From positions 1-26,351 of the IMG/VR virus record IMGVR_UViG_3300023297_000079: DNA of 26,351 nt; one strand, written 5' to 3'. The notes beneath the pieces are model-generated. The model searched no databases, was not told the origin of the DNA, and saw only the letters and a list, made by a program, of their open reading frames with translations. A program made the position numbers and the translations under genes. Source of the DNA: a virus. This document shows positions 2,643 through 19,166 of the stretch, piece by piece; position 1 is the stretch's first letter; the number at the start of each line of letters is the position of its first letter.

Positions 2643-3028
2643 TTTTTTACTAACTCCTCCTTATCCTCTTCTGTTATCCCATTTAACTTACCGGCTGCAT
2701 CTGCTATCTTAGTCAATTTGGAAGCACTCATGTTTTGACTTAATGTAGCAAAATCACCTGGTTCCATTAAATTCTTTCCTTCCGCATCACACAAACAATT
2801 AACAGCTAACTTAGCCCGGAAATCGCCCATTGATTGTTGATAATCTACAATCTTACCTGTTTTTGATTTGATTTTCTTTACCAACAGATTTTCAAACTGC
2901 TCCCTTTCTCTTCCTGTCATCTGACGGACAAACACAATTAGATTACCCCCCAAATCAACCTGAACAGTTTTTAATGCTTCCTTTTTTAACAAATTCTCTC
3001 TGGTTAAAAGAACTCTTTTTTTTGTCAT
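2591..3028 (-). CDS. Tail assembly chaperone, zero-frame product (gpG-like)
   Basis: This 145-residue protein lies between the tail tube gene and the tape measure gene, the standard place for the abundant gpG-type chaperone. It begins with a basic stretch (MTKKRVLLTRENLLKKEAL) and contains RQMTGREREQFENLL, a pattern typical of phage tail chaperones. It is acidic near the end (EEDKEELVKNSDSDQD), after which the zero frame stops at a TAG. A frameshift at its codons 128-129 produces the longer GT-like form. The 63-base gap before it (3029-3091) is very AT-rich with no Shine-Dalgarno sequence. I see no GC-rich terminator there, though it is one of the longer gaps in the tail operon and could hold a promoter. 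Confidence 0.85.
   Translation of the reverse strand: MTKKRVLLTRENLLKKEALKTVQVDLGGNLIVFVRQMTGREREQFENLLVKKIKSKTGKIVDYQQSMGDFRAKLAVNCLCDAEGKNLMEPGDFATLSQNMSASKLTKIADAAGKLNGITEEDKEELVKNSDSDQDVASSSGSVKN
2642..2648 (-). promoter_or_regulatory. Programmed -1 ribosomal frameshift site (A AAA AAC)
   Basis: The minus strand reads A AAA AAC with the upstream frame cut as GTA AAA AAC, exactly the phase for a canonical X XXY YYZ slip. The -1 frame that follows has no stop until 2214, and its product matches the expected second half of a tail chaperone. The zero frame ends 49 bases further on at a TAG (2591-2593). The phase was checked against the ATG at 3028. No clear downstream pseudoknot or hairpin was worked out. 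Confidence 0.85.
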
Positions 3029-3091
3029 GATTTTTAACTTTTTAAAAATTAATAAAAATACTTGATTAGTACTATTTTAAAACTCTATCTA

Positions 3092-3535
3092 CTATCCTGG
3101 CGATGCCGAAGCCGACCCAGAGTTGAGTGTTACTGTTCCGCTGATTTTAATAGTCACATCAAGTGTGATTTTATCATCAGGGGCAATAACTAATGGTAAC
3201 TCAGTTACCAATCCTTCAAACTCCAAGGTGGTTGTCGCCGTGTCAGGTAGTACAACTTCATAGTTGACAAGGGTGTCACTTTCAAAATCATCTTTCATCG
3301 TAGCATATTGTGTACGAGTGAAATTCATTGAAAGTACAACAGTCCCTCCATCTCGGAATCCCGCAATAAACTCACGGTATCCATCAGTTGAACCAAGGGT
3401 AGTTACATCAATCGTATCTCTGGTCATACTAGGACCAGTTATAGTATTTATTTCTGATATCGCTGCCCAAACTCCGGTGCTGGCATTCCATCTCCGAAAT
3501 ACTGTGCTAACACCTGATACTGCTTCACTGCTCAT
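3092..3535 (-). CDS. Major tail tube protein
   Basis: This 147-residue protein would polymerise into the tail tube around the tape measure. The central signature TRDTIDVTTLGSTDGYREFI followed by AGFRDGGTVVLSMNFTR is typical of lambda gpV-like and related tail tube proteins, and the rest is predicted beta-rich (TTTLEFEGLVTEL, ITLDVTIKISGTV). It ends in a Ser/Ala/Gly tail. A strong AGGAGG at 3542-3547, six bases from the ATG, suits a protein needed in hundreds of copies. Position after the tail terminator and before the chaperones supports the call. Confidence 0.88.
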   Translation of the reverse strand: MSSEAVSGVSTVFRRWNASTGVWAAISEINTITGPSMTRDTIDVTTLGSTDGYREFIAGFRDGGTVVLSMNFTRTQYATMKDDFESDTLVNYEVVLPDTATTTLEFEGLVTELPLVIAPDDKITLDVTIKISGTVTLNSGSASASPG

Positions 3536-3574
3536 TTTTTACCTCCTTTTCATTATTAAATTAAACAAACATCA

Positions 3575-3991
3575 TTATCTTCGCTGTATATTGAAGTTAA
3601 TGACAAACCGTACTCTGCTATTCTCATCCCAGTCCAAAAAAGCTGGACCACTTGAACAATAAATAACTGAGTACAAAGTTCCATCATTACACGTCTCCTG
3701 TGCCCGGCCATGTAACGAAGTCCTTATCTTTTGTATTAATGCCCATCCTGCTACGTAACCAGTATTTCGTACTCTGATTTGAACGGATGGGTAGTAATAA
3801 TTTTCTCCTTTTCCTGCCAAAGTTAATTGTGGTGAACCTCCTATTGTATCAAATATAGTTACACAATTCTTTGGTGCTGTTGGCTCAACTGCAATGAATA
3901 GATTTCTTCCCTCTATTTCGGGATCAAAAACCAAATTTAAAGCCGTATCGGCAACCAGCATATCTTTGATATCTTCGCTAGGACTATTCAT
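3575..3991 (-). CDS. Tail terminator-like protein
   Basis: This 138-residue protein begins with a short helix (SPSEDIKDMLVADTALNLVF), followed by alternating strands and ending RVRFVINFNIQRR. Small alpha/beta proteins of this length that sit between a gp10-like protein and the tail tube gene are usually the tail terminator (gpU/DUF3168 type), which caps the growing tail tube. The call rests on size, order and general pattern, since there is no diagnostic motif. The start overlaps the upstream stop by 4 bases (ATGA). A 39-base gap separates it from the tail tube gene, which has its own strong ribosome binding site. Confidence 0.65.
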   Translation of the reverse strand: MNSPSEDIKDMLVADTALNLVFDPEIEGRNLFIAVEPTAPKNCVTIFDTIGGSPQLTLAGKGENYYYPSVQIRVRNTGYVAGWALIQKIRTSLHGRAQETCNDGTLYSVIYCSSGPAFLDWDENSRVRFVINFNIQRR

Positions 3992-4548
3992 TTTATATGT
4001 GCATTTTTTCTTATTGTTTCCACTATTAATTTCCTATTCTTTTTTAAAGATGCTTCAAGAAACTTTGCCCCAGCTCCGGCTCTACGAGTATATTTTTTAG
4101 TTGCTTGAGTTACCTTACCACTTTTTGTTCGTTTTATTTTACTTTGATCTCCTGTAAAATTAGCATCTACCATCTCATGAACAAATGTTGCATAATTAGC
4201 ACTAAATCCCATTATTACAACTGGCATCGGAATCGCTACTGCAACAGATTTATATTCCGATATTACAGAAGCATGATCAGTGGCTAACTTCCCTGCTTCT
4301 TTTCCCTCAAATGAAGCCTGTCCTCCTTTTTCAATCTTTGTCCCTGAAGTAACAAACCAACTAGCTCGTAAATTACCAGTATCTATTGGAATTATAGGAG
4401 CACTAAAATCCATATCCCTACGAATAATGATAGAAGCTTCTATTAATCCTTTTGTGGATCTTCCTTCAATCTTTTTAATTTCCTTAGCAAGATTAGATAA
4501 AACAATATCCATCCCTTTTAATCCTGTATTTGGGTTTACTGATGCCAT
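3988..4548 (-). CDS. HK97 gp10-like head-tail joining / tail completion protein
   Basis: This 186-residue protein contains the pattern of gp10-like neck proteins: an N-terminal helix, then SAPIIPIDTGNLRASWFV, where the D-T-G-N-L-R-A-S core is characteristic. Later it has ANYATFVHEM, the usual Y-x-x-x-V-H-E motif, and a basic C-terminus (KKYTRRAGAGAKFLEASLKK) that commonly ends in a long helix. These proteins act at the connector between head and tail. Start and stop both overlap neighbours (TAATG at 4548, ATGA at 3988), indicating coupled translation. Confidence 0.85.
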   Translation of the reverse strand: MASVNPNTGLKGMDIVLSNLAKEIKKIEGRSTKGLIEASIIIRRDMDFSAPIIPIDTGNLRASWFVTSGTKIEKGGQASFEGKEAGKLATDHASVISEYKSVAVAIPMPVVIMGFSANYATFVHEMVDANFTGDQSKIKRTKSGKVTQATKKYTRRAGAGAKFLEASLKKNRKLIVETIRKNAHIK

Positions 4549-4931
4549 TACAAATACGCCTTTCTTATAAACTTATTACTCTGCCGGTGTTCCGGAGTCT
4601 TTTCAAACAATTTAATCTGGTATGCCTTGTCAACATCCGCTGGATTATCTTCCTCTGCACTGGTTAAAGCTCCTGAACTATCCAACGTACCCAAATACAA
4701 ATAACCCTCTTCATCAACATCCTGTAAAACCCACACCTTAGCTTTTGAAACAATTTCCCGGCTTTTTCTATCATCCCCAGCCATTGAAATCACCTCATTA
4801 ACATCTTCCCAACGGCATTTAATCTCAACAGGATCATCATATGCAAATCCACCTCTACCATCATCCTGTGGATTGCCCCAATAGACTGCATCCTGATTAC
4901 ATAATCGACTTATAAAATTTGCTATTCCCAT
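4548..4931 (-). CDS. Head closure / head-tail adaptor-like protein
   Basis: This 127-residue protein has an early aromatic Gly/Pro segment (DAVYWGNPQDDGRGGFAYDD) and a conserved-looking W (CRWEDVNEV), followed by beta strands. Its length and place between the connector-like protein and the gp10-like protein match the stopper or head-closure slot of siphoviruses. No motif fixes the family, so the role is positional inference. The start forms a TAATG overlap with the upstream gene. Confidence 0.6.
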   Translation of the reverse strand: MGIANFISRLCNQDAVYWGNPQDDGRGGFAYDDPVEIKCRWEDVNEVISMAGDDRKSREIVSKAKVWVLQDVDEEGYLYLGTLDSSGALTSAEEDNPADVDKAYQIKLFEKTPEHRQSNKFIRKAYL

Positions 4932-5317
4932 TACTCAAAACTTGTTATTGCATATATTCCGGCACCTTTCTTACCAATATTAGCCATCTTACCTGTTATA
5001 TCTAATTGTAATACCATTTGTCCGTACGGGGTGGAAGATAAATTCTGTTTCCACTCACCTGTATATTTCACCGTGGCATCCCCCAACTTTTCCTCTGTGG
5101 TTGTTTTCCATACCGTACTAGCTATCATATGAGCTGTAAACCAACGTTCAATGTCTTCCAATAAAACAGTTCCAATACTGGCATCATCTCCAAGTATTTT
5201 TGTTACCAAAGCATTTGCCCCAAGTATAAAAGACTCTACTCTGGTATCACTCAAATTATCCTCAGTAAGGTTATCCATAATCAATCTAACTTCTGCGGCT
5301 GATGTCCGTGTTGCCAT
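4931..5317 (-). CDS. Head completion adaptor, DUF4054-like
   Basis: This 128-residue, mainly helical protein begins TRTSAAEVRLIMDNLTEDNL and includes DIERWFTAHMIASTVWKT, resembling phage head-tail connector proteins of the DUF4054 or gp6-like type: an N-terminal helical domain whose conserved W-F-T-A-H helix packs in the connector ring, then a short Gly-rich tail with YGQMVLQLD. It has a strong AGGAGG (5324-5329, six bases before the ATG). It is the first structural gene after the metabolic island, and in most relatives it would follow soon after the capsid gene. The island therefore splits the head module. Confidence 0.7.
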   Translation of the reverse strand: MATRTSAAEVRLIMDNLTEDNLSDTRVESFILGANALVTKILGDDASIGTVLLEDIERWFTAHMIASTVWKTTTEEKLGDATVKYTGEWKQNLSSTPYGQMVLQLDITGKMANIGKKGAGIYAITSFE

Positions 5318-5712
5318 TATTTACCTCCTATTTTTTTGCTTTTATATATTTCAAATTCATCCTCAGTAGGTGTTTCGTATGTTGTATCTTTCCACAATGT
5401 TCCTCCAGGCAAATACACCAATCTACTTTCATCCCAAAATCCTCTCATCATATTCCTCCATGCTCTACGTGGAGCCACAAATGATAATATAACTATGTCC
5501 CCCGCAAATTCTCTCTGCCTTGCTAATGATGCTACCTTTACCAAATTTTGAATCCGTCCCTTATCAGTGAAATCCCAGTTGTGAGTTTGTTTTCTAAAAT
5601 GATCTCCATCAAATGAGGATACGAGTACATCAGCATCCGTTAATTCCTTAACCAGTGCCTGAGCATAATGTGATTTACCTGAATGAGCTTTACCTGTTAT
5701 TAGTATTACCAT
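5317..5712 (-). CDS. cysC: Minimal adenylylsulfate (APS) kinase
   Basis: APS kinase phosphorylates adenosine 5'-phosphosulfate to PAPS, the universal sulfate donor. The protein shows a P-loop GKAHSGKS (residues 7-14), then FDGDHFR (34-40) matching the LDGDNxR motif, then NWDFTDKGRIQNLVKVA (45-61) matching the GFSxxDRxENIRRVAE region, and FVAPRRAW (78-85) matching FISPFRxxR. At 131 residues it is well short of the usual 180-200: the segment after about residue 90 lacks the usual KGLYKKARxG region. It is not obviously broken and may be a compact phage form. It overlaps the end of the sulfotransferase gene by 23 bases, so the two are co-expressed. The host would have to supply APS, since no ATP sulfurylase is visible. 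Confidence 0.85.
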   Translation of the reverse strand: MVILITGKAHSGKSHYAQALVKELTDADVLVSSFDGDHFRKQTHNWDFTDKGRIQNLVKVASLARQREFAGDIVILSFVAPRRAWRNMMRGFWDESRLVYLPGGTLWKDTTYETPTEDEFEIYKSKKIGGK

Positions 5713-6424
5713 TTTTTTCTTTTTTTCGCGTGTGAAATAATAATGGATCTATAAAATTTAAAACTTCTGATTTCCATTCCAACCCTAACCATTCCAATGT
5801 TTCATGTATCTGTTGATAATCTCCATATACCATTCTCTGTGGCCAAACTACTTTACAATTTACTCCCTCTGTAATCATTTCAATAAACCGTTGTTCATGT
5901 TGCCGTACCCACCATTTCCAACCATCAGCTTCAGTTTTTACCCCAACCGCTTTACGTTGATCTTCTCTTATAAATGCCCTCATAAATCCAGTTTTTAAAC
6001 AGGATTGAATAATGTCTCCGGTTCTACGCCGTACGATAATCCACTTGGCATTTGGAAAAGCATAGTGCCATATCGGCCATGCCAAGCACATTTTAGCCCC
6101 CTTATACATCCACGGTCCCCCTGTATATCCCTGATCCAACATTACTTGCTCTACCCGCTTTCTCAAATCAGTTGGTATCATCAAACTATTCACATCCGGC
6201 AGAGGGTACTGCCCCATTTGATCAACTCCAATTTGTTGCATATAAGGTTTAACAATCTCGTTGCGTATTTCAGCATTTTCAAACATTCCTTTCTGATTAC
6301 TTTTATTTGGACCTGACATTTTTCCTCCAAACGCTCCACACATATTAATTATGCCAGCAATCATACTGGTACCAGAACGAGCAGCTCCAGTGATTAGAAT
6401 CGGTGATGGTAAATTTTCTTTCAT
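5690..6424 (-). CDS. PAPS-dependent sulfotransferase
   Basis: This 244-residue enzyme should move sulfate from PAPS to a hydroxyl or amine on a sugar or other acceptor. The 5'-phosphosulfate loop is ITGAARSGTSM (residues 11-21). The 3'-phosphate region is WIIVRRRTGDIIQSC (about 128-142), with the expected Arg and Ser. Between them lies a variable acceptor region rich in Trp and Met. The ATG at 6424 was chosen because it forms an ATGA overlap with the upstream stop; a TTG two codons earlier is less likely. The next gene supplies APS kinase, so donor synthesis and use sit together. The acceptor is unknown; the adjacent glycosyltransferases suggest a glycan. Confidence 0.85.
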   Translation of the reverse strand: MKENLPSPILITGAARSGTSMIAGIINMCGAFGGKMSGPNKSNQKGMFENAEIRNEIVKPYMQQIGVDQMGQYPLPDVNSLMIPTDLRKRVEQVMLDQGYTGGPWMYKGAKMCLAWPIWHYAFPNAKWIIVRRRTGDIIQSCLKTGFMRAFIREDQRKAVGVKTEADGWKWWVRQHEQRFIEMITEGVNCKVVWPQRMVYGDYQQIHETLEWLGLEWKSEVLNFIDPLLFHTRKKEKNGNTNNR

Positions 6425-9400
6425 ATCCAATTAGTTTTAACCCATGATAAATGTATTACTTCAGTTAGCCTAGGTCTACCATGAAAACAAATTATTCGAG
6501 CATCCTGTGGTAACTGAGCACGACAATTTCTTTTGTAAGAATAAATTCCTGAAACCAAATTTTGTAATGGTATATATCTTTCTCCATGTTTTGCTAATGC
6601 TTGAGAAATGTATTGCTGATCACCTTTTGGATATTCTGATGTATGTGCAATATTAAATTTCTTGTAAATAAATGAATAATCCTTTCCATTATTCCAAGCC
6701 AATAAACCTGAGGCACATATACCTAACAGACGATTGTTAAGATTCCAAGGTTGTAAGGCTGCAAAATCTTCTTTAACTCTTAATAAGTCATCAATATTCC
6801 CCAATATAATAGTATCCAAATCAAAATAAACAGCCCGCTCTGTATTAATCAGCCCTGAACGGAATAACTCAACCTTCCCCCACCACCCAGGATAGTTGGC
6901 TTTAAATTTCCTACTATCACAAATCTCTGAACTGATTTCTAAATCAGTAAGGCATAAAAATTGGTGAGGGATAGTAGTATTACGATCTACCATATTTTTT
7001 AATCTCTTGACATACTCAATAGTATAATCCCCACCAGACTTTAATACGCAAAGAATTGTAACCAACTTACTATCCTTATTTGGTATTGGTTGAACTGGCT
7101 GAGGTTGCTCTTTCAATTTTAGTGGTACTTCTTTTGCCTTTACTTCTTCTACCTTTATCTTTTTTCCTTTTACCAAATCTACACCTAACTGTATCAATGG
7201 AGCTGTTCCTGAATACTCTGATGTATATACTGGAAAATAAGTATTCCTCAATGTGGAAGGAGGACAAATATTAACTGAGAAACGTGGATGGAAAAAATCA
7301 CTCCACAAAACCACTGTCTTCTGCTTCAATGCTATGGACATAATTGTTAATCCAGATGGAATGCCATATACCATTTCTGCCCCTCGTATTAATCCGAATA
7401 ATTGATCTAAATTAGTTTCTCCAACTAGATTAATAGCATTTGGAACGCAAGATATCAGATTCATCAACCCTTTATCTTCTCTATTCCAAGTACCACCAAC
7501 AAATATTGGAGTACATCCAGTCTTTTGTACAATACTATTGGTAATCTTTTTAATTTCCTTAATAGAAATCTTTTGCAATAAAACCTTATTTGATCCTATA
7601 AAAGTATAATAGAATACTATGTATTTCCCAAATTGTTTTTGGCAATATTTTTTATACTTCTCTTGCTCTAATGATACGAACATTGGAGGGAACCATTCAC
7701 ATTTCAAATCTGGGTCTGTTTCTTCCAAAGGCATTCCTGCTGTAAGATAACCATTATGAGAAACAAAATAATCACAACCTAATATATTTTCAAAAATTGT
7801 CCTGCCTTTACTATGATACGCTTCTCTCCATATTAATTCGTTCTTCTGAGTGGATCTCATACTTAATATTTCCTCTTTAATGTGTAAAAAAGGAAACATC
7901 CGAATAAAAGGAACTGATCGGTTATACGCATTCATATGTCTATTCCGTCGATTTGCTATATGTATATCTGGAAGCCCTAAATTCTTTTGTTTTAAAAAAG
8001 CATTTATTTTTACAATTTCCCAATAACAATCCCCAATTCCTGGAGGGAATAATATTTTAACCCTTTTTTGTATTGGTTTTGTAAGGTTAAAAATAACCTC
8101 CCGCTTCGTTTGTGTTGTAATTTGTACTTGGAACCCTACTTTTTTTAACTCCTCCCCCAACTGTGCTGAAGAATAAAACCAGACATTCGTTGAAGTTCTT
8201 TTAAAAAAATGCAATATAAATTTTCCTTCTTGTTTTAATGCTCGGAATGCCTCCTTTAAAAACAGTACTGGTGATGTCTTATACCCAAATGTTTCTGAGC
8301 AAGTAATTACATCAAAATAATCAGTTGGAAAATTGATATCTTCAAGTTCTTGATGATAAATATAATCATCATTCTTACTAAAATCGTATGGTAATAATTC
8401 ACAGCCGTAAGCCTCTATTTTATTTTCCCTACAAATATCTACAAACGCTCCTCCTCCAGAATTAATATCTAATACTTTACTGTTAGAAGATATATTATAC
8501 GTTTTAAATCGGTTGAGTGCCTTCTCTTTTGTATACTCATACATCCTATTCTCATACTCTTTTGCCGAGCATGTTCCTTTATATATATCTTCTACTTTTT
8601 GCATTAAAATATCTATTGTAAGATTCTTAGTATTTTCAATAAAACAAGTTTTATTCTTCACGCTTGGTGGTACTGAATTCCACATAAAACCGTACCTATT
8701 CCAATCATTCCAAATGAGTAAAACCTTTTGCTTTAACCCTGCTGCCAACATGGTTAATCCACAAGGATACCCAACTACCATCTCACTACCACGTATTAAT
8801 CCGAATAACTGGGCAACTGTGGTCTTACCTGTCAAATCCACAATATTTGGTATGCTATTTTTTACTCTAGTCAACTCTGTATCCTCCTTATCCCAATCAG
8901 CTCCAACAAAGACAGGAGTACACCCTGTTTTTTGTACTATTCCTTTGATGCTTGTTATTATATTATCAACTGAAAACTCTCGTACCCAGTGTAGAAAGGA
9001 GCCTCTAAAAACGAAAAAGAATATAATGTATTTTCCATATTTCTGAATTGATACCTCCTTAAATTTATCTTCTTCCAATGAAATAAATCTATCAGGAAAC
9101 CAATCACATTTCAAATCAATATCTACTTCTGCCATAGATGTTCCAGACTCAAGTACACCATTGTAAGATATGAAATAATCATATCCTAATATATTTTTGA
9201 AAATCGTTTTCCCTCTCATTACATAGGCTTCTTGCCATATCTTTTTTGCCGTTGTATTTTCTGCTACAATATTACTTGAATTAAGAAATGGGAACATCTC
9301 AATGAACGGAAATGATCTTTTGTGTGTTTTATATTTCTTATCTTCATTTGCTAAAATACAAATATCAGGTACTCCTAACTTCTCTCGTTTCAAAAAGGCT

Positions 9401-10200
9401 TTAATTTTTACAATTGGCCAATATGTATCTCCAATACCAGGTGGTAAAAGTATTTTTACTCGTTTCTGAATTGGTTTTGTAAGATAAAAAACTGTCTTTG
9501 ATTCAATTGGGTGTGTAACCTTTTGTACAGCAAACCCAACTTTCATTATCAATTTTTCCAGCTGTTCAGTTGTAAAATACCATATATGCTCTACACCTTT
9601 CCAATGATGTTTTCCTGCTTTATGATAAAATCTTGGAAAGTCAATAATACATTCCCCTTCCTGTGTAGTAACTCTGAACAATTCTTCCACCATCTTAACA
9701 GGATTCAAAACATGCTCCAGAACATCATGGCAAGTTACCACCTCAAAATGATCAGTTGGAAAATTAATATCTTCAAATTGTTGCTTGTAAATGAATTCAT
9801 CTCCATTCTTATAATGATACTGTCCTATTTCACAACCATAGGCCTCAATTCCTCTGCTTCTACACTCGTCTACGAATGCCCCACTACCAGAACCAACATC
9901 CAAAGTTTTCACTCGCTCTGGGATGTTATAAGCATCACAACGCAGGGCTGCTACCTTTCTATCATGCTTGTAATCCTTAATTTCATAGGCCTGCTTAACT
10001 GGTGGATATTCTTTTTTGTAGAAATCAGTGAACCCCTTTTCTGAATTGAATGGTAAATCAATTTGCCTAACCACCCCACACTTCTTACACTCAACAGTAG
10101 TTATGTCCACTGCTTGTTCAATTCCTTTGGTATCCACCTTACAACCTTTTACAATTGTACGATTATGTACTGCAATACTCCCACAAATGCATTTATTCAT
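6421..10200 (-). CDS. Giant multidomain methyltransferase / glycosyltransferase (tandem MT-GT9-like units plus C-terminal GT)
   Basis: This 1259-residue protein starts at ATG 10200, which overlaps the upstream stop by 8 bases. Domains in order: a Cys-rich zinc-ribbon-like N-terminus (CICG near residue 3, CKKCG near 38); SAM methyltransferase 1 at about 90-240 (LDVGSGSGAF, and CHDVLEH near 157); a GT9/heptosyltransferase-like domain at about 245-540 (RVKILLPPGIGDTYW, and later LFGLIRGSEMVVGYPCGLTM); a second methyltransferase-like domain at about 570-705 (LDINSGGGAF); a second GT9-like domain at about 708-1010 (RVKILFPPGIGDCYW, LFGLIRGAEMVYGIPSGLT); a Lys/Pro linker at about 1012-1044; and a C-terminal GT8-like glycosyltransferase with DLD at 1127-1129. 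The second methyltransferase has lost the motif I Gly and the C-H-D-V-L-E-H motif, so it may be inactive. The substrates are unknown. Confidence 0.8.
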   Translation of the reverse strand: MNKCICGSIAVHNRTIVKGCKVDTKGIEQAVDITTVECKKCGVVRQIDLPFNSEKGFTDFYKKEYPPVKQAYEIKDYKHDRKVAALRCDAYNIPERVKTLDVGSGSGAFVDECRSRGIEAYGCEIGQYHYKNGDEFIYKQQFEDINFPTDHFEVVTCHDVLEHVLNPVKMVEELFRVTTQEGECIIDFPRFYHKAGKHHWKGVEHIWYFTTEQLEKLIMKVGFAVQKVTHPIESKTVFYLTKPIQKRVKILLPPGIGDTYWPIVKIKAFLKREKLGVPDICILANEDKKYKTHKRSFPFIEMFPFLNSSNIVAENTTAKKIWQEAYVMRGKTIFKNILGYDYFISYNGVLESGTSMAEVDIDLKCDWFPDRFISLEEDKFKEVSIQKYGKYIIFFFVFRGSFLHWVREFSVDNIITSIKGIVQKTGCTPVFVGADWDKEDTELTRVKNSIPNIVDLTGKTTVAQLFGLIRGSEMVVGYPCGLTMLAAGLKQKVLLIWNDWNRYGFMWNSVPPSVKNKTCFIENTKNLTIDILMQKVEDIYKGTCSAKEYENRMYEYTKEKALNRFKTYNISSNSKVLDINSGGGAFVDICRENKIEAYGCELLPYDFSKNDDYIYHQELEDINFPTDYFDVITCSETFGYKTSPVLFLKEAFRALKQEGKFILHFFKRTSTNVWFYSSAQLGEELKKVGFQVQITTQTKREVIFNLTKPIQKRVKILFPPGIGDCYWEIVKINAFLKQKNLGLPDIHIANRRNRHMNAYNRSVPFIRMFPFLHIKEEILSMRSTQKNELIWREAYHSKGRTIFENILGCDYFVSHNGYLTAGMPLEETDPDLKCEWFPPMFVSLEQEKYKKYCQKQFGKYIVFYYTFIGSNKVLLQKISIKEIKKITNSIVQKTGCTPIFVGGTWNREDKGLMNLISCVPNAINLVGETNLDQLFGLIRGAEMVYGIPSGLTIMSIALKQKTVVLWSDFFHPRFSVNICPPSTLRNTYFPVYTSEYSGTAPLIQLGVDLVKGKKIKVEEVKAKEVPLKLKEQPQPVQPIPNKDSKLVTILCVLKSGGDYTIEYVKRLKNMVDRNTTIPHQFLCLTDLEISSEICDSRKFKANYPGWWGKVELFRSGLINTERAVYFDLDTIILGNIDDLLRVKEDFAALQPWNLNNRLLGICASGLLAWNNGKDYSFIYKKFNIAHTSEYPKGDQQYISQALAKHGERYIPLQNLVSGIYSYKRNCRAQLPQDARIICFHGRPRLTEVIHLSWVKTNWI
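7263..8475 (-). repeat. Tandem intragenic repeat, unit 2 (degenerate methyltransferase + GT9-like)
   Basis: This is the second copy of the block. The GT9-like half stays close to unit 1, with the N-terminal Gly-rich loop and the C-terminal donor-site segment both present. The methyltransferase half has drifted at its SAM-binding motif and lacks the H-D-V-L-E-H segment. The boundaries are approximate. Confidence 0.8.
8670..9906 (-). repeat. Tandem intragenic repeat, unit 1 (methyltransferase + GT9-like)
   Basis: This is the first copy of a duplicated block in the giant gene. Matching landmarks fall about 466-476 residues (about 1.4 kb) apart: L-D-V-G-S-G against L-D-I-N-S-G, KPIQKRVKILLPPGIGD against KPIQKRVKILFPPGIGD, and TGCTPVFVG against TGCTPIFVG. 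The boundaries are approximate and set by those landmarks. Confidence 0.8.
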
Positions 10201-10810
10201 GATAGTATGCCTCCCGTATGGCATTATTTACCTTTTCAAAATATTTATCCATATTCGTATGTAAAACAGCCACTCCATAATGCAGTTTCAATATAGAGCA
10301 AGCCTTGTACTTTTCCATTTTTGATAATTCATTAACAAAACTATATACATCCTGAGCAAAGACATCATCAATAACCAATATATGATCTTTTGGTATTACA
10401 TTTTTTAATGTAGAATATTCCCCTTGTAAATCAACAGCATAATGAGAAGCATCCATAAATACTATTTCTGGCATCTCTTTTGTCCAATGTTTCAACCATG
10501 TATCTTTTGTATTACCTGCTATCAATTTAATCTTATCCACTACACCACATGCTATGATGTTTTTCTCCGGTTCTCCCAAACTATTAGCTGTGTCACCTCT
10601 ATAATCATCCACTGTAACAATCGTTCCTCTCTCAGCTCCTAACGCCATAAATATAGCAGAACAACCAAACCCAGTTCCAAACTCCAATATATGCTTAGGA
10701 TTAATATTTTTTACTAACCAATACAAAAACATCATTGAACCCAAAGTCTGATATTCAGCTTGTTTAACTACCTTTTTAAGATGTGGATTTGTCTTATATA
10801 AATTGATCAT
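10193..10810 (-). CDS. Class I SAM-dependent methyltransferase (Methyltransf_24-like)
   Basis: This 205-residue protein carries motif I EFGTGFG (residues 43-49), a post-I acidic stretch (VTVDDY), the motif VFMDASHYAVDL (about 112-123) and LVIDDVF later, a pattern typical of the Methyltransf_24 / cephalosporin hydroxylase-like group. It probably O-methylates a sugar or small molecule, although a few relatives are hydroxylases. The ATG at 10810 lies 17 bases inside the end of the upstream dehydrogenase gene, and its own stop overlaps the start of the giant transferase within an 8-base ATGAATAA. The fold is well supported; the substrate is unknown. Confidence 0.82.
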   Translation of the reverse strand: MINLYKTNPHLKKVVKQAEYQTLGSMMFLYWLVKNINPKHILEFGTGFGCSAIFMALGAERGTIVTVDDYRGDTANSLGEPEKNIIACGVVDKIKLIAGNTKDTWLKHWTKEMPEIVFMDASHYAVDLQGEYSTLKNVIPKDHILVIDDVFAQDVYSFVNELSKMEKYKACSILKLHYGVAVLHTNMDKYFEKVNNAIREAYYHE

Positions 10811-11450
10811 CTGTAATTATTTTTGTAGGTATTTTATCAATAGTAATTTCTGTAATCTCTGCCCTTGTATAATCTCTACACAAATTCAATATTATTTTTG
10901 CTACATTCAATGGATCAATGTTGTGTTTTGGATCCTTTCCTTTATTTTTTGTCATATCCGTTTCCATAGCCCCAAGAAAAACACTAACTACTCTTACACC
11001 ATCCCTTAAACCATCATACCGTAAAGAATCTGCAAACCCTTTCAATCCAAACTTACTAGCACAATATGCAGACTCACCTGGACTTCCATTCCTCCCTGCT
11101 ACAGAATTAATAAATACAACCGTACCTGCTTTCTTCCTTTGAAATATCGGCCAAACAGCATTTGTAAGATTAATAACAGACAATAAATTTATATCAATAA
11201 CCTCCTTAAATTCAGCTGCTGTCATTTCTGAAAATGGTTTATTTATATAAACACCAGCATTGTTAATAAGAATATCAATGTTATAATCCACCGCCAAAGA
11301 TGCCAAATCTGCTAATGTAGCCCCATCCCTCAAATCACCATCCACTCTACCACGATGAGGCAGCACACTGTATCCAGCCCCTCCAAATACACTGGCAAGA
11401 TGCTTTCCTAATCCTCTACTCGTACCTGTTATTAATACAGCTTTATTCAT
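10794..11450 (-). CDS. Short-chain dehydrogenase/reductase (SDR)
   Basis: This 218-residue classical SDR shows the cofactor loop TGTSRGLG (from residue 9), NNAG (63-66), the catalytic Ser in INSVAG (about 116) and the YCASK catalytic motif (Tyr129, Lys133). It should oxidise or reduce a hydroxyl/keto group using NAD(P). The start was set at ATG 11450, two bases past the upstream stop and preceded by a purine-rich AAAGGAAGGAA; a TTG 24 bases upstream is less likely. It sits between the TPP enzyme and the methyltransferase, which suggests a role in reshaping a small molecule or sugar for the transferases downstream. Confidence 0.88.
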   Translation of the reverse strand: MNKAVLITGTSRGLGKHLASVFGGAGYSVLPHRGRVDGDLRDGATLADLASLAVDYNIDILINNAGVYINKPFSEMTAAEFKEVIDINLLSVINLTNAVWPIFQRKKAGTVVFINSVAGRNGSPGESAYCASKFGLKGFADSLRYDGLRDGVRVVSVFLGAMETDMTKNKGKDPKHNIDPLNVAKIILNLCRDYTRAEITEITIDKIPTKIITDDQFI

Positions 11451-11451
11451 G

Positions 11452-12663
11452 TTAATATAATTCCTTCCTTTCAACTATTAATACAGGACGGGGACTCGTT
11501 AATGCAAAATCATATGACGCTATGATCATCCCTGGTAATATTGGATCATATACTGGAAAAGTAAACATCTTTTTAAACAACTCCGACAGATCAGATGTAT
11601 GAGTATGCCCTGCGTAGAACGGCTTTACAGAGCCTACAACAGCTTTAATTATAATTGGAAACTCATACTCCCCATTTGATAAGAACATGGCTTTATCGGC
11701 TTGATTCACCAGTATATCCAAAGCATTGTAAATAAAGTCATGCCGTTCAAAAAACAATAATGGTCTGTATCCTTCTAAAGACATCCCCAAAGCCAATCCA
11801 GCCATCAAGTTTTCTGCCAATGGTGTTTCCAATCGTTGATCCAATGGAACATCTCCAAATGTTTCGTATCCGTTTCCACAACGAACATTATATCCTACAA
11901 AAATTACCCCTTCCTGAGCTAACTTTTTCATTGAACTACAAACAGCATCCTTATATGTCACTGAACCTAATATAGTATTATTTTTAGGTACTGGTATAAA
12001 CGGGTGTGGTTGTTCCTCAACTATTGCCTCCTTACTAAACTTCAACCATTTACCACTCCCTGTACCTCCATGTGGCCAAGTGGAATGATATCTATACTTT
12101 CGAACATATCCATTTTTTCCTACATAGTATCTATGCGTTAATGATATTCCAGTATGTAAACTTTCCGCCCCCCAACGCTCCTCTTTAGAAGCAATAACCG
12201 AGCGATCGTTGTCTTCTATAACAAATGTACAAGGCAAAGCCTGTGAATTTACATATCTGGCAGCTTCGTAGAAATGTCCTTCATCCTCTGCTCCATCTCC
12301 TACAAAACACCAAACCTTGTTGGTACTTCCTTTTCGTTTCAAAGCCCATGCCACTCCTGCTGCAATACTAACAGTACCAGCAACAATGGAAGAGGCATAA
12401 AAATTCAATTTCCTATCAAATACAAACATACTTTTGCCAGTCAAAATCAATTCTTCCAAACGTTCTGGACTGCCTCCAGCTAATAAGTAATGATAATGTG
12501 AACGGTGTGTACTGAATACATAATCTCCAGGTTGAACCTCCTTAAAAATTTCAATCAGCTCCTCTTCATTTCCACCTGATAAGTGGATCAGATAAGGAAT
12601 TTCACCATTATCAAATCGTTCTGCTATTTTTCTTTCAAAATCAATTAAATCTTGTTTATTCAT
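11452..12663 (-). CDS. Single-chain TPP-dependent E1 dehydrogenase/transketolase-like enzyme (alpha and beta fused, C-terminal domain absent)
   Basis: This 403-residue protein resembles the two subunits of 2-oxoacid dehydrogenase E1 joined in one chain. The N-terminal half is E1-alpha-like, with STHRSHYHYL (51-60) and the thiamine diphosphate motif GDGAEDEG (122-129) ending at Asn152. The C-terminal half from about residue 230 is E1-beta-like: R-x-x-x-TPLAENL places a Glu at 284, where the cofactor-activating glutamate is expected, followed by the phenylalanine-rich segment PLLFFERHDF. It stops after VLIVERKELY, where normal E1-beta continues for about 130 more residues (transketolase C domain). 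No E2 or E3 gene is visible, so a decarboxylase or carboligase role on a sugar precursor is more likely than acyl-CoA formation. It overlaps the upstream gene by 8 bases. Confidence 0.8.
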   Translation of the reverse strand: MNKQDLIDFERKIAERFDNGEIPYLIHLSGGNEEELIEIFKEVQPGDYVFSTHRSHYHYLLAGGSPERLEELILTGKSMFVFDRKLNFYASSIVAGTVSIAAGVAWALKRKGSTNKVWCFVGDGAEDEGHFYEAARYVNSQALPCTFVIEDNDRSVIASKEERWGAESLHTGISLTHRYYVGKNGYVRKYRYHSTWPHGGTGSGKWLKFSKEAIVEEQPHPFIPVPKNNTILGSVTYKDAVCSSMKKLAQEGVIFVGYNVRCGNGYETFGDVPLDQRLETPLAENLMAGLALGMSLEGYRPLLFFERHDFIYNALDILVNQADKAMFLSNGEYEFPIIIKAVVGSVKPFYAGHTHTSDLSELFKKMFTFPVYDPILPGMIIASYDFALTSPRPVLIVERKELY

Positions 12664-13699
12664 GTTGGTTAATGTTTAACAAAACCCTGCCACTGGTTCC
12701 TTTCTTTACTGCTTCCACAGCCAAATTAATCTGGCTTAATGGAAAAGTATGAGTAATAAGAGAATCCAATGCCAATTTTCCTTGTTTATATAATCGTAAA
12801 TATCTTGGTATATCAATAGTTGGATTTGTCAAGCCTCCCTGACTATCCATTAATGTTTTTCCTACATAATGCTGTCCTATTGATGTTAATATTAAATCAT
12901 CTCCTTGTTGTGGTTGCCCTACCAATATCATTTTACCTCTAGAAGCTGTAATCTCATATCCTTTATTAATTACATACGAACTTCCTGTGCAATCTACCAC
13001 AACATCTGCCCCTTGTTTTCCTAAAATTTTAAATACTTCATCAACAAAATCACTTTCCGCTGAATTAATTGCCTGAGTAGCTCCTACAGCTCTTGCCATA
13101 AGTAATTTATTGGAAAATCTATCAATAGCAATAACAGGATTACCTCCTACCATTGCTGCTCCTTGAATTATGTTCAATCCAACTCCACCACAACCAATTA
13201 CCACAATAGATTGTCCAATTTTCAACTTAGCTTCATTGTTAATCAATCCCAAGCCTGTTGTAACTGCGCAACCCATTAATGCTGCAATCTCGGAAGGTAT
13301 ATCGTCATCTATTTTTGTCAAACGATTTTCTGAAATAACTGCATATTCATTGAATGTAGTTATCCATCCACCTCCAACTTCTCCAGCTCTCCATCCATAC
13401 TTTGGAGGAGAGGCCTCAATTCCTGAGCCTTTTCGCCAATGCATTACAACTTTATCACCTTTCTTTACCGTTGTAACACCCGGTCCAGCTTGTTCAACCC
13501 AACCGCCTCCTTCATGTCCCAGTAAATGGGGCAAATACTTGTCTTCACCTTTGGCTCCTGTGATTTCCCTTATTTGAGCTCCACAAATCGTACTACAATC
13601 CACCTTAACGAAAACCTGCCCACATCCCAATTCGTTAGGCATCGTAATATCTTCTACAACCAATGGACTGTTTACCTTTTCTAGTATTGCAGCTTTCAT
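12656..13699 (-). CDS. Zinc-type medium-chain alcohol dehydrogenase
   Basis: This 347-residue MDR-family oxidoreductase has the catalytic zinc ligands Cys39, His62-Glu63 (GHEGGG) and Cys144, and a Rossmann loop GCGGVG (169-174). The acidic Asp193 after the second strand suggests NAD rather than NADP. The structural zinc lobe is absent: where four spaced cysteines normally occur (about residues 85-118), the sequence has none. It probably oxidises or reduces a polyol or sugar alcohol. It overlaps the DUF115-like gene by 4 bases and the TPP enzyme gene by 8, so the three are translated together. Confidence 0.88.
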   Translation of the reverse strand: MKAAILEKVNSPLVVEDITMPNELGCGQVFVKVDCSTICGAQIREITGAKGEDKYLPHLLGHEGGGWVEQAGPGVTTVKKGDKVVMHWRKGSGIEASPPKYGWRAGEVGGGWITTFNEYAVISENRLTKIDDDIPSEIAALMGCAVTTGLGLINNEAKLKIGQSIVVIGCGGVGLNIIQGAAMVGGNPVIAIDRFSNKLLMARAVGATQAINSAESDFVDEVFKILGKQGADVVVDCTGSSYVINKGYEITASRGKMILVGQPQQGDDLILTSIGQHYVGKTLMDSQGGLTNPTIDIPRYLRLYKQGKLALDSLITHTFPLSQINLAVEAVKKGTSGRVLLNINQHE

Positions 13700-14394
13700 A
13701 ATAATGATTTTACTGTAACTTTTTCAAATTCTGTAATTGTACTATCCGGACAAGCATTTATAATTGTTAATCCTCTTTTCTTTGCATCCCTGGCAATCAA
13801 CGAAAATCCACTTTTATGTCTATCAAAAGTAACTTTCATTTTCTTCTCATCCTTCCTATCAAACGTCCCATACAACCCATGCCAATGTTGTCGTAAATCT
13901 ACATCCCATGTCATATCAAACCCAACCAATACAATCCGTTTCACCCCTGTATGAGCTGCTATACTAATTGCAGCCGCTCCACTATTACCATTCCAACATA
14001 CTTTACCACTATCTGGACTAATTCCCTTTCCATACTTCTTATTCCGTGATAAATACTTAATCCTTTCCGCTACATACTTCTCACCACTAGGATGACAGGT
14101 TAATTTCAATCCTGGAAACTCTGCTACTTGTTCTCTGTTCTTTAAAAACCATCCTTTATCCCCGTAAAACATTATATCAATCCAGTCACCAATTAAAAAA
14201 GCTGTATTAACTCCAATAACATGCTTCTTATGTATTCCCTTCATGTAAGGAGAATAGGCGCTTGGAGTAAGTTCTTTGGTCAACACCTGTTGAATAACTT
14301 TTTCAGGTACTCCAAATTGCCTCGGCATTGACGGGCCACCTCCAATAATCCAGCATTCCCCTCCTTCCCAAATATTTGGGACTTTCCAGGGCAT
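13696..14394 (-). CDS. MptE/DUF115-like protein (possible sugar-nucleotide or pterin pyrophosphokinase fold)
   Basis: This 232-residue protein has CWIIGGGPSM (14-23), VIGVNTAFL, the segment DIMFYGDKGWF, and GNSGAAAISIAAHTG followed by RIVLVGFDM, a pattern found in DUF115 / 6-hydroxymethylpterin diphosphokinase MptE-like proteins. Members occur in surface glycan loci and in phage genomes near glycan enzymes; some relatives are linked to flagellar or surface glycosylation. The exact reaction is unknown here. The start forms a TAATG overlap with the upstream small gene, which ties it to the capsid-proximal operon. Confidence 0.7.
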   Translation of the reverse strand: MPWKVPNIWEGGECWIIGGGPSMPRQFGVPEKVIQQVLTKELTPSAYSPYMKGIHKKHVIGVNTAFLIGDWIDIMFYGDKGWFLKNREQVAEFPGLKLTCHPSGEKYVAERIKYLSRNKKYGKGISPDSGKVCWNGNSGAAAISIAAHTGVKRIVLVGFDMTWDVDLRQHWHGLYGTFDRKDEKKMKVTFDRHKSGFSLIARDAKKRGLTIINACPDSTITEFEKVTVKSLL

Positions 14395-14723
14395 TACTCC
14401 AATGTCTTTATAAATTCAAGAGCTTTTGTCATTCCTGGAAGTGCTTTTTCATTCACCTTTTTACCTTGTCCATCCTCCACATCATACCAATTCGAGGTTC
14501 CTCTCTTCTTTGCTGTATAAGCTAAAGGAGATGCCTTAGGTATATCTTCTGTTTCATCAATCTCTTCAAGCGGCAATACAATATCCCGAAATCCTTGTGG
14601 AATCTCATGTGGATAGGCTTGAAACTTCTGATTTTGTTTGATAACCCTATTCCCCATACGGAAACTTCCGCCACCCTTCTTTATCCACCAAATTTTATCC
14701 TTATTTGTTTTTGTTCTTTTCAT
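14394..14723 (-). CDS. Small conserved-looking phage protein downstream of capsid gene
   Basis: This 109-residue protein begins with a very basic stretch (MKRTKTNKDK), then KKGGGSFRMGNRVIKQNQKF and PHEIPQGFRDIVLPL, and ends with a region around NWYDVEDGQGKKVNEKAL. I recall similar GGGSFR-type small proteins beside capsid genes in other phages, but I know no assigned function. It could be a minor head or neck component. It has no clear Shine-Dalgarno sequence. It begins after a 41-base gap that contains a perfect palindrome, so it may be the first gene of a separately controlled segment. Confidence 0.7.
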   Translation of the reverse strand: MKRTKTNKDKIWWIKKGGGSFRMGNRVIKQNQKFQAYPHEIPQGFRDIVLPLEEIDETEDIPKASPLAYTAKKRGTSNWYDVEDGQGKKVNEKALPGMTKALEFIKTLE

Positions 14724-14739
14724 AATAAATTATATTAAA

Positions 14740-14751
14740 AATCACGTGATT
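14740..14751. repeat. 12-base perfect palindrome downstream of the capsid gene
   Basis: AATCACGTGATT is its own reverse complement. It lies in the short AT-rich gap (14724-14764) between the capsid stop and the next start. With no loop and no following T-tract it is not a standard terminator. It looks more like a binding site for a dimeric protein, or it may be chance. Confidence 0.45.
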
Positions 14752-14764
14752 AGTGAATTATTAA

Positions 14765-15865
14765 TTATGCTGATAAGTGAGTGATTCCACTATTACCATC
14801 CTTATCAGAACGAATCTGAGGAACCTGAATAGTTAAAACCTTGTACTTAGTAACAAACTTACCTTCTTCTTGCCACTGAACATTGGTTACACCCATACCT
14901 CTAACCAAACGAACAACATCGCTAGTCATCTGCACTAGCAATACATTGTTAGCAGTCAAAGTATCCACAATCTTAATTCCTTTGATATTAGCTATCTTCA
15001 AAATACGCTCTCTGATAGTAGTACCCGGAGTATCCTCGGCATAATCCATATCCAATATAGTCTCATAAGCTGTAGGAATATACAACATATACGGTCCGTA
15101 ATGCCTAGCATCAATACTAGCCTGTTTCATTGACCGGACATCTTCCAAAATATCAGCAGCAGACTTTGCGGCTGCATCCCAATTCGTGGTCAATGCCACT
15201 GGATTCCTGTCTGCATGGTTGACATAACTGTATATTGTACCTCCACCAAAAGCGTATGTTTCATTGGTAAACAACATTGTTTCCATCTTCTCATTCACCT
15301 TCCGGACAGCTCTTTCCATTGAAGTAACATCCAACGGATTGCCTAAACTACGACTAGCAGCCAATACCCTAGCGTTGATTTCATAATCAACATGGATAAT
15401 TGGAATTGGTAAGTAGTTAGTTCCGTAAGTTGGCCGATCACCTACACTGCGAGTTATCCCGTCCATCGTCAAATCAGCTTCAAATGCATCACTTACATCA
15501 TGGTATTCTAATACGGTTGTTCCCATAGCATTACCTAAAGTATATACCAATCCGTTATCAACCAAATCCTGAACACCACCTAAACGTTGTCTGGAAATTT
15601 CCAGTAAAGCTTCATCCAACTGTTTCCACTCATCCCTGCGGAGAGTTCCGTTGGTTTGTAATCCTAAAGACCGGGCGGAAGCTGTTACCCAGCTTTCTTT
15701 TTTATTAACATCCCCACCTCTATACACAGTCATATACGTCTGATTATCTTTCGTACTGACAAACGGGCGCATTGTCCCGATATTCAATCTACCTTCCTGA
15801 GCCATTAAAGCAGCGATTTCTCCCTGTCCTCCATTTGCTCCAATAATATCTATATTTGCTTTCAT
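14765..15865 (-). CDS. Major capsid protein (HK97 fold, linocin/encapsulin- or DUF2184-like)
   Basis: This 366-residue protein is placed after the protease/scaffold and decoration-like genes. It contains LDEALLEISRQRLGGVQDLV (N-terminal arm and helix), a PIPIIHVDYEINARVL segment followed by MERAVRKVNEKMETMLFTN (the long spine helix of HK97-fold proteins), and GPYMLYIPTAYE in the P/A-domain region. This pattern resembles encapsulin-like major capsid proteins. The start has a strong AGGAGG (15874-15879) eight bases upstream, as expected for the most abundant structural protein. The N-terminus looks short (no separate delta domain), consistent with scaffold supplied by the upstream gene. Confidence 0.9.
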   Translation of the reverse strand: MKANIDIIGANGGQGEIAALMAQEGRLNIGTMRPFVSTKDNQTYMTVYRGGDVNKKESWVTASARSLGLQTNGTLRRDEWKQLDEALLEISRQRLGGVQDLVDNGLVYTLGNAMGTTVLEYHDVSDAFEADLTMDGITRSVGDRPTYGTNYLPIPIIHVDYEINARVLAASRSLGNPLDVTSMERAVRKVNEKMETMLFTNETYAFGGGTIYSYVNHADRNPVALTTNWDAAAKSAADILEDVRSMKQASIDARHYGPYMLYIPTAYETILDMDYAEDTPGTTIRERILKIANIKGIKIVDTLTANNVLLVQMTSDVVRLVRGMGVTNVQWQEEGKFVTKYKVLTIQVPQIRSDKDGNSGITHLSA

Positions 15866-15887
15866 TTATTTTTCCTCCTTTCTATTT

Positions 15888-16385
15888 TTAAACGATTCTT
15901 ACTTTAATTCTCCTGGCAGCTCCAATAGGTGCTTCACTTGAATTCATACTCGATGCTGCTCCAGCTGCAACTGCTTCCAGTGCCTGAGCCACGATTTGAT
16001 TGGTGTAACTTGTGGAAGCCTCACCAGACGAAGCTGTATCAGCTGCATGAAGTTGTAAAAACCCTACTCCATTACTTTCCAAAAAGTCTCCAATAGCAAT
16101 ATTAGTTCCATCTTCTACAATAGCATACACTATATCACCTCTGTTAGGTATCCAAACTTGTACAAGTGTACTTACTGCATATTGATCAGTGATTTCCTTA
16201 CCTTGCAGTTCATCTTCCAAGGCAAACATTGGTATTGCATTTCCACCTTCAGTGCTATGTGCTTGAACATAACCAGCAGTGGCGTTCAATTCCAATAACA
16301 TACCCGGAGTAATAGCTACGGCTGTCGATAAGATTTCCTCAATGACATTCGAATACTTTTTAAGCTTAATTGTGTTATATGACAT
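15888..16385 (-). CDS. Capsid decoration / stabilisation-like protein
   Basis: This 165-residue, beta-rich protein lies between scaffold and capsid genes. It has alternating strands in a small-barrel style (AITPGMLLELNATAGYVQAH, VQVWIPNRGDIVYAIV, AIGDFLESNGVGFLQLH) and ends in basic RRIKVRIV. Proteins in this slot are usually head decoration or capsid-stabilising proteins. The call depends on position and fold-like pattern. Expression should be high: AGGAGG at 16393-16398, seven bases from the ATG. Confidence 0.7.
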   Translation of the reverse strand: MSYNTIKLKKYSNVIEEILSTAVAITPGMLLELNATAGYVQAHSTEGGNAIPMFALEDELQGKEITDQYAVSTLVQVWIPNRGDIVYAIVEDGTNIAIGDFLESNGVGFLQLHAADTASSGEASTSYTNQIVAQALEAVAAGAASSMNSSEAPIGAARRIKVRIV

Positions 16386-16402
16386 TTGTTTTCCTCCTTT
16401 CC

Positions 16403-16912
16403 TTAGTTTTTAGAAGACTCTTTTTCCAACTCTATTCCTGTTGGAAACAAAGGTTCTTCTTCATTAACATTAACTTTAGGCCGTTCGGCATTTCCTCCAA
16501 GTATTGAAAAATCGGTCTCATCTTTCAATGTAGACTTATACAGTTTTTCAAGTGAGTCCATCGACATTTCTTTAAAATCGGCCTCTGTATATATGTCTTC
16601 AGTATTCGCTAAAATACTTTTTGACATTTTTTCACGATCTGCATCGTACCTTTTTTTACCATACGCTTGCACTTCAGTATCTACAACTGGTAGAGTCTTT
16701 TTGTAATCCTCTATCACTTGCTTTTTCTCATCCTCATTCAGTTGAGGAGTTTCTTCTTTTTTTACCTCTGGCTCATTTGGGAGCATCTTATCAATAGTTG
16801 CTTCCTCCAAAGTCGATAACCACTCTTTATCCTCTTCAGTGTACTTTGTCAACTTGTGGTCGATAAGTGCTTTCACTTTATCAGGACAAGGAGCTTTCTT
16901 TAATTCACTCAT
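16403..16912 (-). CDS. Nested scaffold protein from internal start
   Basis: An in-frame ATG at 16912 (codon 317 of the protease gene) would give a 169-residue acidic, helical protein beginning MSELKKAPCPDKVKALID. AGGAGG lies eight bases upstream at 16921-16926. A scaffold encoded inside the 3' part of a protease gene from its own start is known in lambda (Nu3 within C). Use of this start is inferred from the ribosome binding site and the domain border. Confidence 0.65.
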   Translation of the reverse strand: MSELKKAPCPDKVKALIDHKLTKYTEEDKEWLSTLEEATIDKMLPNEPEVKKEETPQLNEDEKKQVIEDYKKTLPVVDTEVQAYGKKRYDADREKMSKSILANTEDIYTEADFKEMSMDSLEKLYKSTLKDETDFSILGGNAERPKVNVNEEEPLFPTGIELEKESSKN

Positions 16913-17860: not shown

Positions 17861-17872
17861 ATCGTTTATATG

Positions 17873-19163: not shown

Positions 19164-19166
19164 AAT

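Follow-up and report, generated by a model that had tools for sequence, protein, structure and literature searches.

A hypervariable enzyme slot among the head genes of an uncultured phage clade is a candidate locus for exchangeable, sulfated virion glycosylation

To our knowledge, phage virions are usually regarded as naked protein, and the few that are known to be glycosylated involve few enzymes each. Bacterial capsule and O-antigen loci combine fixed flanking genes with co-directional sugar-enzyme cargo, which is exchanged wholesale among close relatives. Mycobacteriophages encode glycosyltransferases, and glycans on their capsid and tail-tube subunits shield the particle from immune recognition (Freeman et al. 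2023, as cited in PMC12619734 and PMC11256854). Maf enzymes attach O-linked glycans to Ser/Thr of flagellin, and the PF01973 domain that they contain is similar to Cst-II (PMC11339370). Here we describe a run of eight enzyme genes among the head genes of an IMG/VR virus record (IMGVR_UViG_3300023297_000079), a genome fragment whose full 26,351 bp are called the window below, and compare it with these systems.

Gene content, and the way it varies among relatives, make it fairly probable that this locus, from within the head-assembly operon, decorates a virion protein with exchangeable glycans that are terminally sulfated. Eight intact, co-directional open reading frames (ORFs) on the minus strand, which holds all main genes of the window, exactly fill positions 5317-14394. 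On one side they adjoin the major capsid protein gene (MCP; 14765-15865; phrog_771 at 6.6e-26, with homologues annotated as MCP in phages of Brevundimonas and Halorubrum) and g17 (14394-14723), which directly follows MCP and encodes a small two-part protein of 109 aa. On the other lies the gene for a DUF4054 head-completion protein (4931-5317; PF13262 at 4e-5; phrog_302, a virion structural protein, at 6e-5). In transcription order, the eight genes encode the Maf-like protein g16 (13696-14394), a zinc alcohol dehydrogenase (ADH; 12656-13699), the thiamine-diphosphate (TPP) E1 enzyme g14 (11452-12663), a short-chain dehydrogenase/reductase (SDR; 10794-11474), an O-methyltransferase (10193-10810), a 1267-aa giant protein (6421-10224), the sulfotransferase g10 (5690-6430) and g09, a short adenosine-5'-phosphosulfate (APS) kinase (5317-5712). 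We refer to g16 and g10 as brackets, to the genes between them as cargo, and to the space between the MCP and DUF4054 anchors as the slot.

The slot recurs in relatives with strikingly different contents. A capsid-protein search returned 80 relatives, of which 45 carried both flanks, with MCP-to-DUF4054 distances of 1.1 to 9.7 kb; in a larger sample, made up of 82 distinct relatives whose contig holds both MCP and DUF4054, the slot measures between 83 bp and 10.8 kb. The median distance that separates g16 from DUF4054 is 4.2 kb (interquartile range 2.7-7.0, n=39), and directly adjoining structural genes outside the slot are separated by median gaps below 0.3 kb, most of them below 0.1 kb. All but two of 503 slot ORFs (501/503) share the capsid strand. 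The combination of g17, g16 and sulfotransferase occupies 49 of the 82 sites, and these three plus APS kinase 12; g17 and g16 occur without the others in 10, g17 with sulfotransferase in three, g16 with sulfotransferase in two and sulfotransferase by itself in one. Five sites (83-516 bp) are enzyme-free, one of these retaining g17 alone. This gives totals of 73 sites with g16, 67 with sulfotransferase and 12 with APS kinase. Among 107 distinct g16 homologues with upstream room, 106 lie within 3 kb of an MCP. Glycosyltransferases thus share an operon and a strand with virion genes, as would be expected of virion glycosylation. At the slot position of Brevundimonas phage MaInes and Halorubrum phage Hardycor1, isolates whose capsids are only remotely related, no enzyme is annotated.

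Comparison of close relatives suggests how this variation arises. Between the window and one relative with 91% MCP identity (L083; relatives and other contigs are designated by L numbers), DNA identity is 90% and 83% on the two sides of 6425-13709, with no DNA match within that interval. These borders coincide with the brackets, since 6425 and 13709 adjoin the start of g10 (6430) and the stop of g16 (13696), each lying no more than 25 bp from a bracket gene. The same two borders are seen with L085 and L087, and single borders with L086, L183 and L184; these cases are not all independent, because L085 and L183 denote one contig, and the alignment of L184 is identical to that of L183. Phage pairs with 60-80% MCP identity have only 3-6% of their cargo genes in common at an identity threshold of 40%, and the window and L083 have 17%. 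A search of the sampled full sites for cassette donors found no cargo gene that was more similar than the MCPs of its carriers. The site is a hypervariable slot with conserved ends and exchanged cargo. An earlier sequence-only reading had treated the eight genes as a joint pathway; this did not survive, as the component genes differ in distribution and do not travel together, and a single inherited eight-gene pathway is rejected. Instead, the Maf-like gene and the sulfotransferase form a lineage core, APS kinase is an optional partner of the sulfotransferase, and ADH, E1, SDR, methyltransferase and giant protein are exchangeable cargo.

A second, smaller variable site lies between a MuF-like head gene and a protease-like gene (L093:4041-7662, L147:6442-8089, L089:5492-7293, L126:4714-5856). 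L093 and L147 have genes there for sugar epimerase, glycosyltransferase family 2 (GT2) and methyltransferase; the occupants in L089 and L126 are endonuclease-type or NUMOD3 proteins.

The cargo is dominated by sugar chemistry. Across 139 cargo proteins GT2 is the most frequent family (25), ahead of NAD-epimerase (14), GDP-mannose dehydratase (13), GT11 (13) and RmlD (12); Polysacc_synt_2 (9), several methyltransferase families including FkbM, radical SAM (4) and DegT aminotransferase (3) are also common, and one protein can count under more than one related family. These classes match those of O-antigen and capsule loci, which raises the question of whether the island might instead remodel the host surface, through a late change of capsule or lipopolysaccharide (LPS) that blocks superinfection or the re-binding of virions to debris. 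The ADH-E1 homologues of cyanophages S-SM2 and P-TIM68, which lie in LPS-like clusters outside the head module, speak for the same possibility. Surface-polysaccharide loci require membrane flippases, polymerases or lipid-carrier enzymes. In a simple hydropathy scan of 452 slot proteins, after removal of near-duplicate contigs, none had two or more hydrophobic segments, seven had one and 445 had none; nor did these 452 proteins include a flippase, polymerase, lipid-carrier transferase, O-acetyl/Gtr membrane protein or other multi-pass protein. The products therefore most likely stay in the cytoplasm and are added to something there. The fixed position relative to the capsid gene, a transferase of Maf type rather than a lipid-linked one, and fusions of the g17 module to cargo enzymes (described below) also count against remodelling, which we consider unlikely. 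The sequence-only reading had left virion decoration and host-surface remodelling side by side: decoration is now favoured, and remodelling is weakened because the 452 proteins contain no membrane component and the g17 module is fused to cargo enzymes.

The bracket gene g16 carries much of the argument. Its AlphaFold model has a predicted local distance difference test score (pLDDT) of 92.9, and the best Foldseek matches are Maf (5mu5, E 2.5e-4, prob 1.0), followed by MptE/HPPK (8sd5), Cst-II and Cst-I. The model shares, over a partial alignment, the catalytic-domain fold of Maf/MptE-like and GT42-like enzymes, and PHROGs matches g16 to a sialyltransferase (3.5e-29); a sequence search of the PDB gave nothing significant. 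By predicted fold, then, g16 is a glycosyltransferase of Maf/Cst-II type. Pterin chemistry, which the label 'MptE-like' would imply, is unsupported, Maf being the nearest fold, though MptE ranks second. With Maf and the GT42 sialyltransferases g16 has in common its predicted fold, and it carries a conserved GGGPS at its N-terminus; it differs from Maf in its length of 232 aa, compared with 632 residues for the chain in the three-domain Maf structure, and in that its acceptor would be a phage protein rather than flagellin. A protein acceptor is plausible, if unproven, because the fold is nearest to Maf and Maf enzymes glycosylate flagellin. At least 512 relatives of the Maf-like gene were confirmed. 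Some carry extra C-terminal sequence (L138:11137-14199, L117:9531-10877, L145:11526-13610, L153:11433-12917), which in L138, L145 and L153 is a recognisable glycosyltransferase domain; from these fusions it follows that the Maf-like protein acts in concert with cargo-type enzymes.

The second bracket protein, g10, falls just below the Sulfotransfer_3 cutoff of 27 (26.4 bits, 9.7e-6), its relatives scoring 28.0-32.3 bits. The motifs for binding 3'-phosphoadenosine-5'-phosphosulfate (PAPS), RSG (5'-PSB) and RR..D...SC (3'-PB), are invariant among 32 sequences of the family, and the profile matches protein-tyrosine sulfotransferases weakly but specifically (TPST1, E 5e-4). In 73 of the 80 best relatives the gene stands directly before DUF4054 (47) or APS kinase (26), the rest being contig ends or variants. 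We confirmed 299 relatives, and none in 50,697 sequenced phage records. Sulfated virions may therefore have escaped notice, the gene being absent from cultured phages. A second, diverged copy occurs within the cargo of several relatives (L083:6621-7277, L093:14734-15384, L100:13337-13981, L110:13623-14279).

An optional partner of g10, the APS kinase g09, would supply its PAPS. It matches PF01583 at 60.9 bits (cutoff 21.1; 1.9e-16) and has a P-loop, DGDxxR and a new YIPGGTLWxGT motif, all conserved in 32 distinct homologues. The canonical C-terminal part, the lid, is missing: g09 has 131 aa, compared with 175-211 aa in solved single-domain kinases, and its matches to solved APS kinases end at residues 89-101, YIPGGTLWxGT standing in place of the lid. 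In the short clade formed by window 5317-5712 and its 32 homologues, YIPGGTLWxGTxYExP stands in place of the usual C-terminal part, and these proteins are possibly a distinct nucleotide kinase. APS kinase follows g10 in 26 of 80 loci, with the gene order swapped in L130/L222. It is accompanied by a sulfotransferase in 12 of 12 sites, a co-occurrence that is weak alone because the sulfotransferase is present in most sites.

Two further explanations bear on what these enzymes act upon. The sulfotransferase lies on the neck/tail side of the slot, and in two contigs (L186:4938-6705, L192:1179-2943) the Maf-like gene and the sulfotransferase form a cargo-free pair located past DUF4054, ahead of the next neck gene. 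The island might accordingly decorate a tail or neck component, or make a small sulfated glycoside or glycolipid, and leave the capsid shell alone; we think this quite unlikely, given that MCP is the most conserved linkage (106/107 homologues). Sugar and methyl enzymes could also modify phage DNA against restriction, as phage glycosyltransferases are known to do (cited in PMC12619734), and soluble cytoplasmic enzymes would be compatible with such a role. The placement in a head operon and the action of the nearest solved sulfotransferase relatives on protein tyrosine make DNA hypermodification the least probable of the alternatives considered here, and no base-hydroxylating or nucleotide-hypermodifying enzyme is among the families seen, although the known part of this genome is only 26 kb.

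The small protein g17 has no Pfam or PHROG match. A hidden Markov model of its N-terminal module of about 45 aa finds fusions in six relatives at 1e-14 to 1e-20, the partners being Capsule_synth-type proteins (L102, L113), a second Maf-like protein with FkbM (L103, L111) and proteins that match no Pfam family significantly (L105, L108). In the island-less L174 the module is a 63-aa stand-alone protein between MCP and DUF4054. The simplest reading is that it is a small head-associated module that doubles as a docking domain, a role that would explain its fusion to glycosylation enzymes in several relatives.

The assembly of the window supports these observations. A lysis-type gene, portal, head morphogenesis, protease/scaffold-like, decoration, MCP and g17 precede the enzyme genes in transcription order, and DUF4054, neck, connector, tail tube, tail chaperone and tape measure follow them. 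PHROGs matches assign the flank classes (portal 1.5e-60, decoration 2.8e-9, capsid 6.6e-26, neck 1.8e-8, tail tube 3.6e-20, tape measure 5e-55). Neighbouring island genes overlap by 4-32 bp and join the head genes by single-base overlaps at both ends, the stop/start at 14394 reading TAATG directly in the sequence; internal promoters or terminators show no excess over shuffled sequences. A second contig (L002, IMGVR_UViG_3300023246_000273) is 99.98% identical to window 1455-19248 (17.8 kb) and spans both island junctions. L177 and L179, from other samples, match across the DUF4054 end at 94-100% identity, the L177 match extending into the giant gene. Because L002 crosses both junctions and relatives share identical borders, a chimera or misassembly at 5317 or 14394 is ruled out.

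These data largely bear out the sequence-only reading of the locus itself. Its eight overlapping, same-strand enzyme genes within the head module agree with ORFs, Pfam and PHROGs flanks; its concern that the contig might be chimeric is settled by L002; and the relatives that it proposed to search, with and without the island, show the same slot with different content or none. Seven of its enzyme classes hold by Pfam, the sulfotransferase just under the cutoff, and its 'MptE-like' protein becomes, by predicted fold, the Maf/Cst-II-type glycosyltransferase. Glycan and sulfation chemistry in the head module is supported, and late co-expression with the capsid is a plausible reading.

The same comparisons speak to whether the island is merely tolerated. 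Empty slots, found in relatives with 53-63% MCP identity, and the 'stuffer DNA' proposal made for cyanophage LPS clusters (PMC3037559) would suit a site that accepts insertions, with cargo that serves host sulfur or carbon metabolism or simply fills the head. Purifying selection acts on the bracket genes, on APS kinase and on the giant cargo gene (ratio of nonsynonymous to synonymous substitution rates, dN/dS, 0.04-0.22), with values of 0.05-0.14 for g16 and the sulfotransferase, similar to the capsid. Together with a single dominant functional class, gene overlaps throughout, and the conservation of sulfotransferase and Maf-like relatives over hundreds of contigs, this makes auxiliary metabolism or passenger DNA an improbable account.

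The cargo of this phage illustrates what one cassette may contain. ADH (PF00107 9.5e-22; phrog_2640 1.4e-83) precedes g14 (PF00676 2.4e-16; PF02779 5e-5; phrog_34187 8e-136), in which matches in the PDB, to E1 alpha over residues 21-163 and to E1 beta over 274-403, show both TPP-binding halves. With 403 aa it ends after the Pyr domain, lacking the C-terminal transketolase domain, and no E2-like gene is among the eight island genes; a pyruvate-type metabolic dehydrogenase is ruled out by these two absences, and g14 is, as its domain matches indicate, a minimal two-domain TPP enzyme (E1-alpha-like plus Pyr). The SDR (PF00106 8.3e-42) and an S-adenosylmethionine-dependent O-methyltransferase (Methyltransf_24/CmcI-like; PF13578 4.4e-8; PF01596 4e-7) follow. 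Speculatively, the E1 enzyme and the two oxidoreductases may lengthen a keto-sugar by two or three carbons and reduce the product, and the trio might perhaps supply an unusual carbon-branched or chain-extended sugar. In the giant protein, two stretches each of Methyltransf_23 (PF13489, 1.5e-28) and GT9 (PF01075, 5e-12) form a methyltransferase-GT9 unit that occurs twice, followed by a C-terminal glycosyltransferase (phrog_1962, 3.5e-26 at 1056-1266). An internal DNA repeat (7343-8093/8750-9491, 66% identity) corresponds to this unit, and the protein is, on the evidence of this repeat and its domains, a tandem duplication with a third glycosyltransferase added. Elsewhere, more than 50 other viral contigs (L016-L070 and others) match the E1 fusion as two separate stretches about 1.6 kb apart; no ADH or SDR homologues were detected near them, and they represent a different, common viral use of the TPP enzyme.

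We are now able to propose how virion glycosylation by this locus might proceed. Late in infection, cargo enzymes would synthesise an activated sugar in the cytoplasm and trim it, and the Maf-like g16 would transfer this sugar, or an initial one, to Ser/Thr residues on a virion protein close to the capsid. The glycan would then be extended and capped by glycosyltransferases and methyltransferases of the cargo and sulfated by the sulfotransferase, and the g17 module would probably dock the enzymes onto the head or the acceptor. New cassettes may enter through recombination in the conserved brackets and flanks; therefore, the coat glycan could change while the capsid does not. A fuller version of this model, in which the slot is a phage 'serotype locus' with a conserved capsid, a swappable cassette that sets an often sulfated, protein-linked glycan, and a g17 that tethers enzymes to the assembling head, is a possibility that we put forward tentatively and at somewhat less than even odds.

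Several observations weigh against virion glycosylation as we propose it. The match of g16 to PF01973 (MptE-like) reaches 20.5 bits, and those of its relatives 24.1 and 24.9, where the Pfam cutoff is 34.6, a further difference from Maf; the fold alignment covers g16 in part, with a template modelling (TM) score of 0.59 of the query and a root-mean-square deviation of 7.2 Å. Structure prediction for g17 gave a predicted TM score (pTM) of 0.42 and no fold match. L170 and L173 have no Maf-like gene, and ten sites with g16 have no sulfotransferase. In two relatives, sugar enzymes also occupy the second head site. The linkage within the slot is partly shared ancestry, because the compared sites come from one phage clade. 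Finally, we infer the acceptor, the glycan and the benefit of decoration from a locus known here by its genes alone.

If the proposal is correct, phages diversify their surface sugars as bacteria do, presumably under selection for adhesion, particle survival or escape from recognition. Throughout a large clade of uncultured phages, the chemistry of the coat would evolve uncoupled from the capsid, giving interchangeable, serotype-like coats, and slot content would predict which phage carries which coat. The hosts cannot be read from metagenome-assembled genome (MAG) labels of MCP relatives (Syntrophomonadaceae, Balneolales, Bacteroidota, Marinimicrobia, Spirochaetota), which were rejected as too scattered; 396 genomes from the phylum of one such MAG gave, besides that MAG, only weak cellular sulfotransferase matches. 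Parts of the island also recur in other settings. In L003 the Maf-like, ADH, E1 and SDR genes form a group that immediately precedes a head-tail adaptor and minor head protein, and L015 has the ADH-E1-SDR trio among head genes with a separate Maf-like gene; a capsid-model search did not detect the clade MCP on either contig.

Comparison with described systems places the locus more precisely. The LPS-like clusters of cyanophages S-SM2, P-SSM2, S-SSM7 and P-TIM68 resemble it in their long runs of sugar enzymes, and S-SM2 and P-TIM68 share the ADH-E1 pair with the window at 46-48% identity, but these clusters lie near tRNA/hli genes, outside the head operon (PMC3037559). Pseudomonas phages PAJU2 and Psp6 have a Maf-like homologue among their head genes, which in Psp6 is separated from MCP by a single small gene; an unknown gene follows it in both, and in Psp6 then a methyltransferase before the connector. 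They differ from the window in that the homologue is remote (21-22% identity), the set comprises two or three genes only, no sulfotransferase was found and the capsid is different. The depositors label the PAJU2 homologue (L167:6899-7468) 'structural protein', which might mean that the Maf-like enzyme is itself in the virion. With capsule and O-antigen loci the slot shares fixed flanks, co-directional cargo and exchange among close relatives; it differs in lying among phage head genes, with no Wzx/Wzy, lipid-carrier transferase or multi-pass protein detected. Our literature search, which covered few subscription papers, found no publication on a sulfotransferase- or Maf-bracketed head-operon cassette. 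Phage-encoded glycosyltransferases are common to the mycobacteriophages and the window phage; the window phage differs in having a full, swappable biosynthetic locus in its head operon, with Maf-type and sulfotransferase brackets and a PAPS supply. Overall, the nearest known kind is phage virion glycosylation, to which this locus adds an architecture and a sulfation branch that are, as far as the literature searched shows, new.

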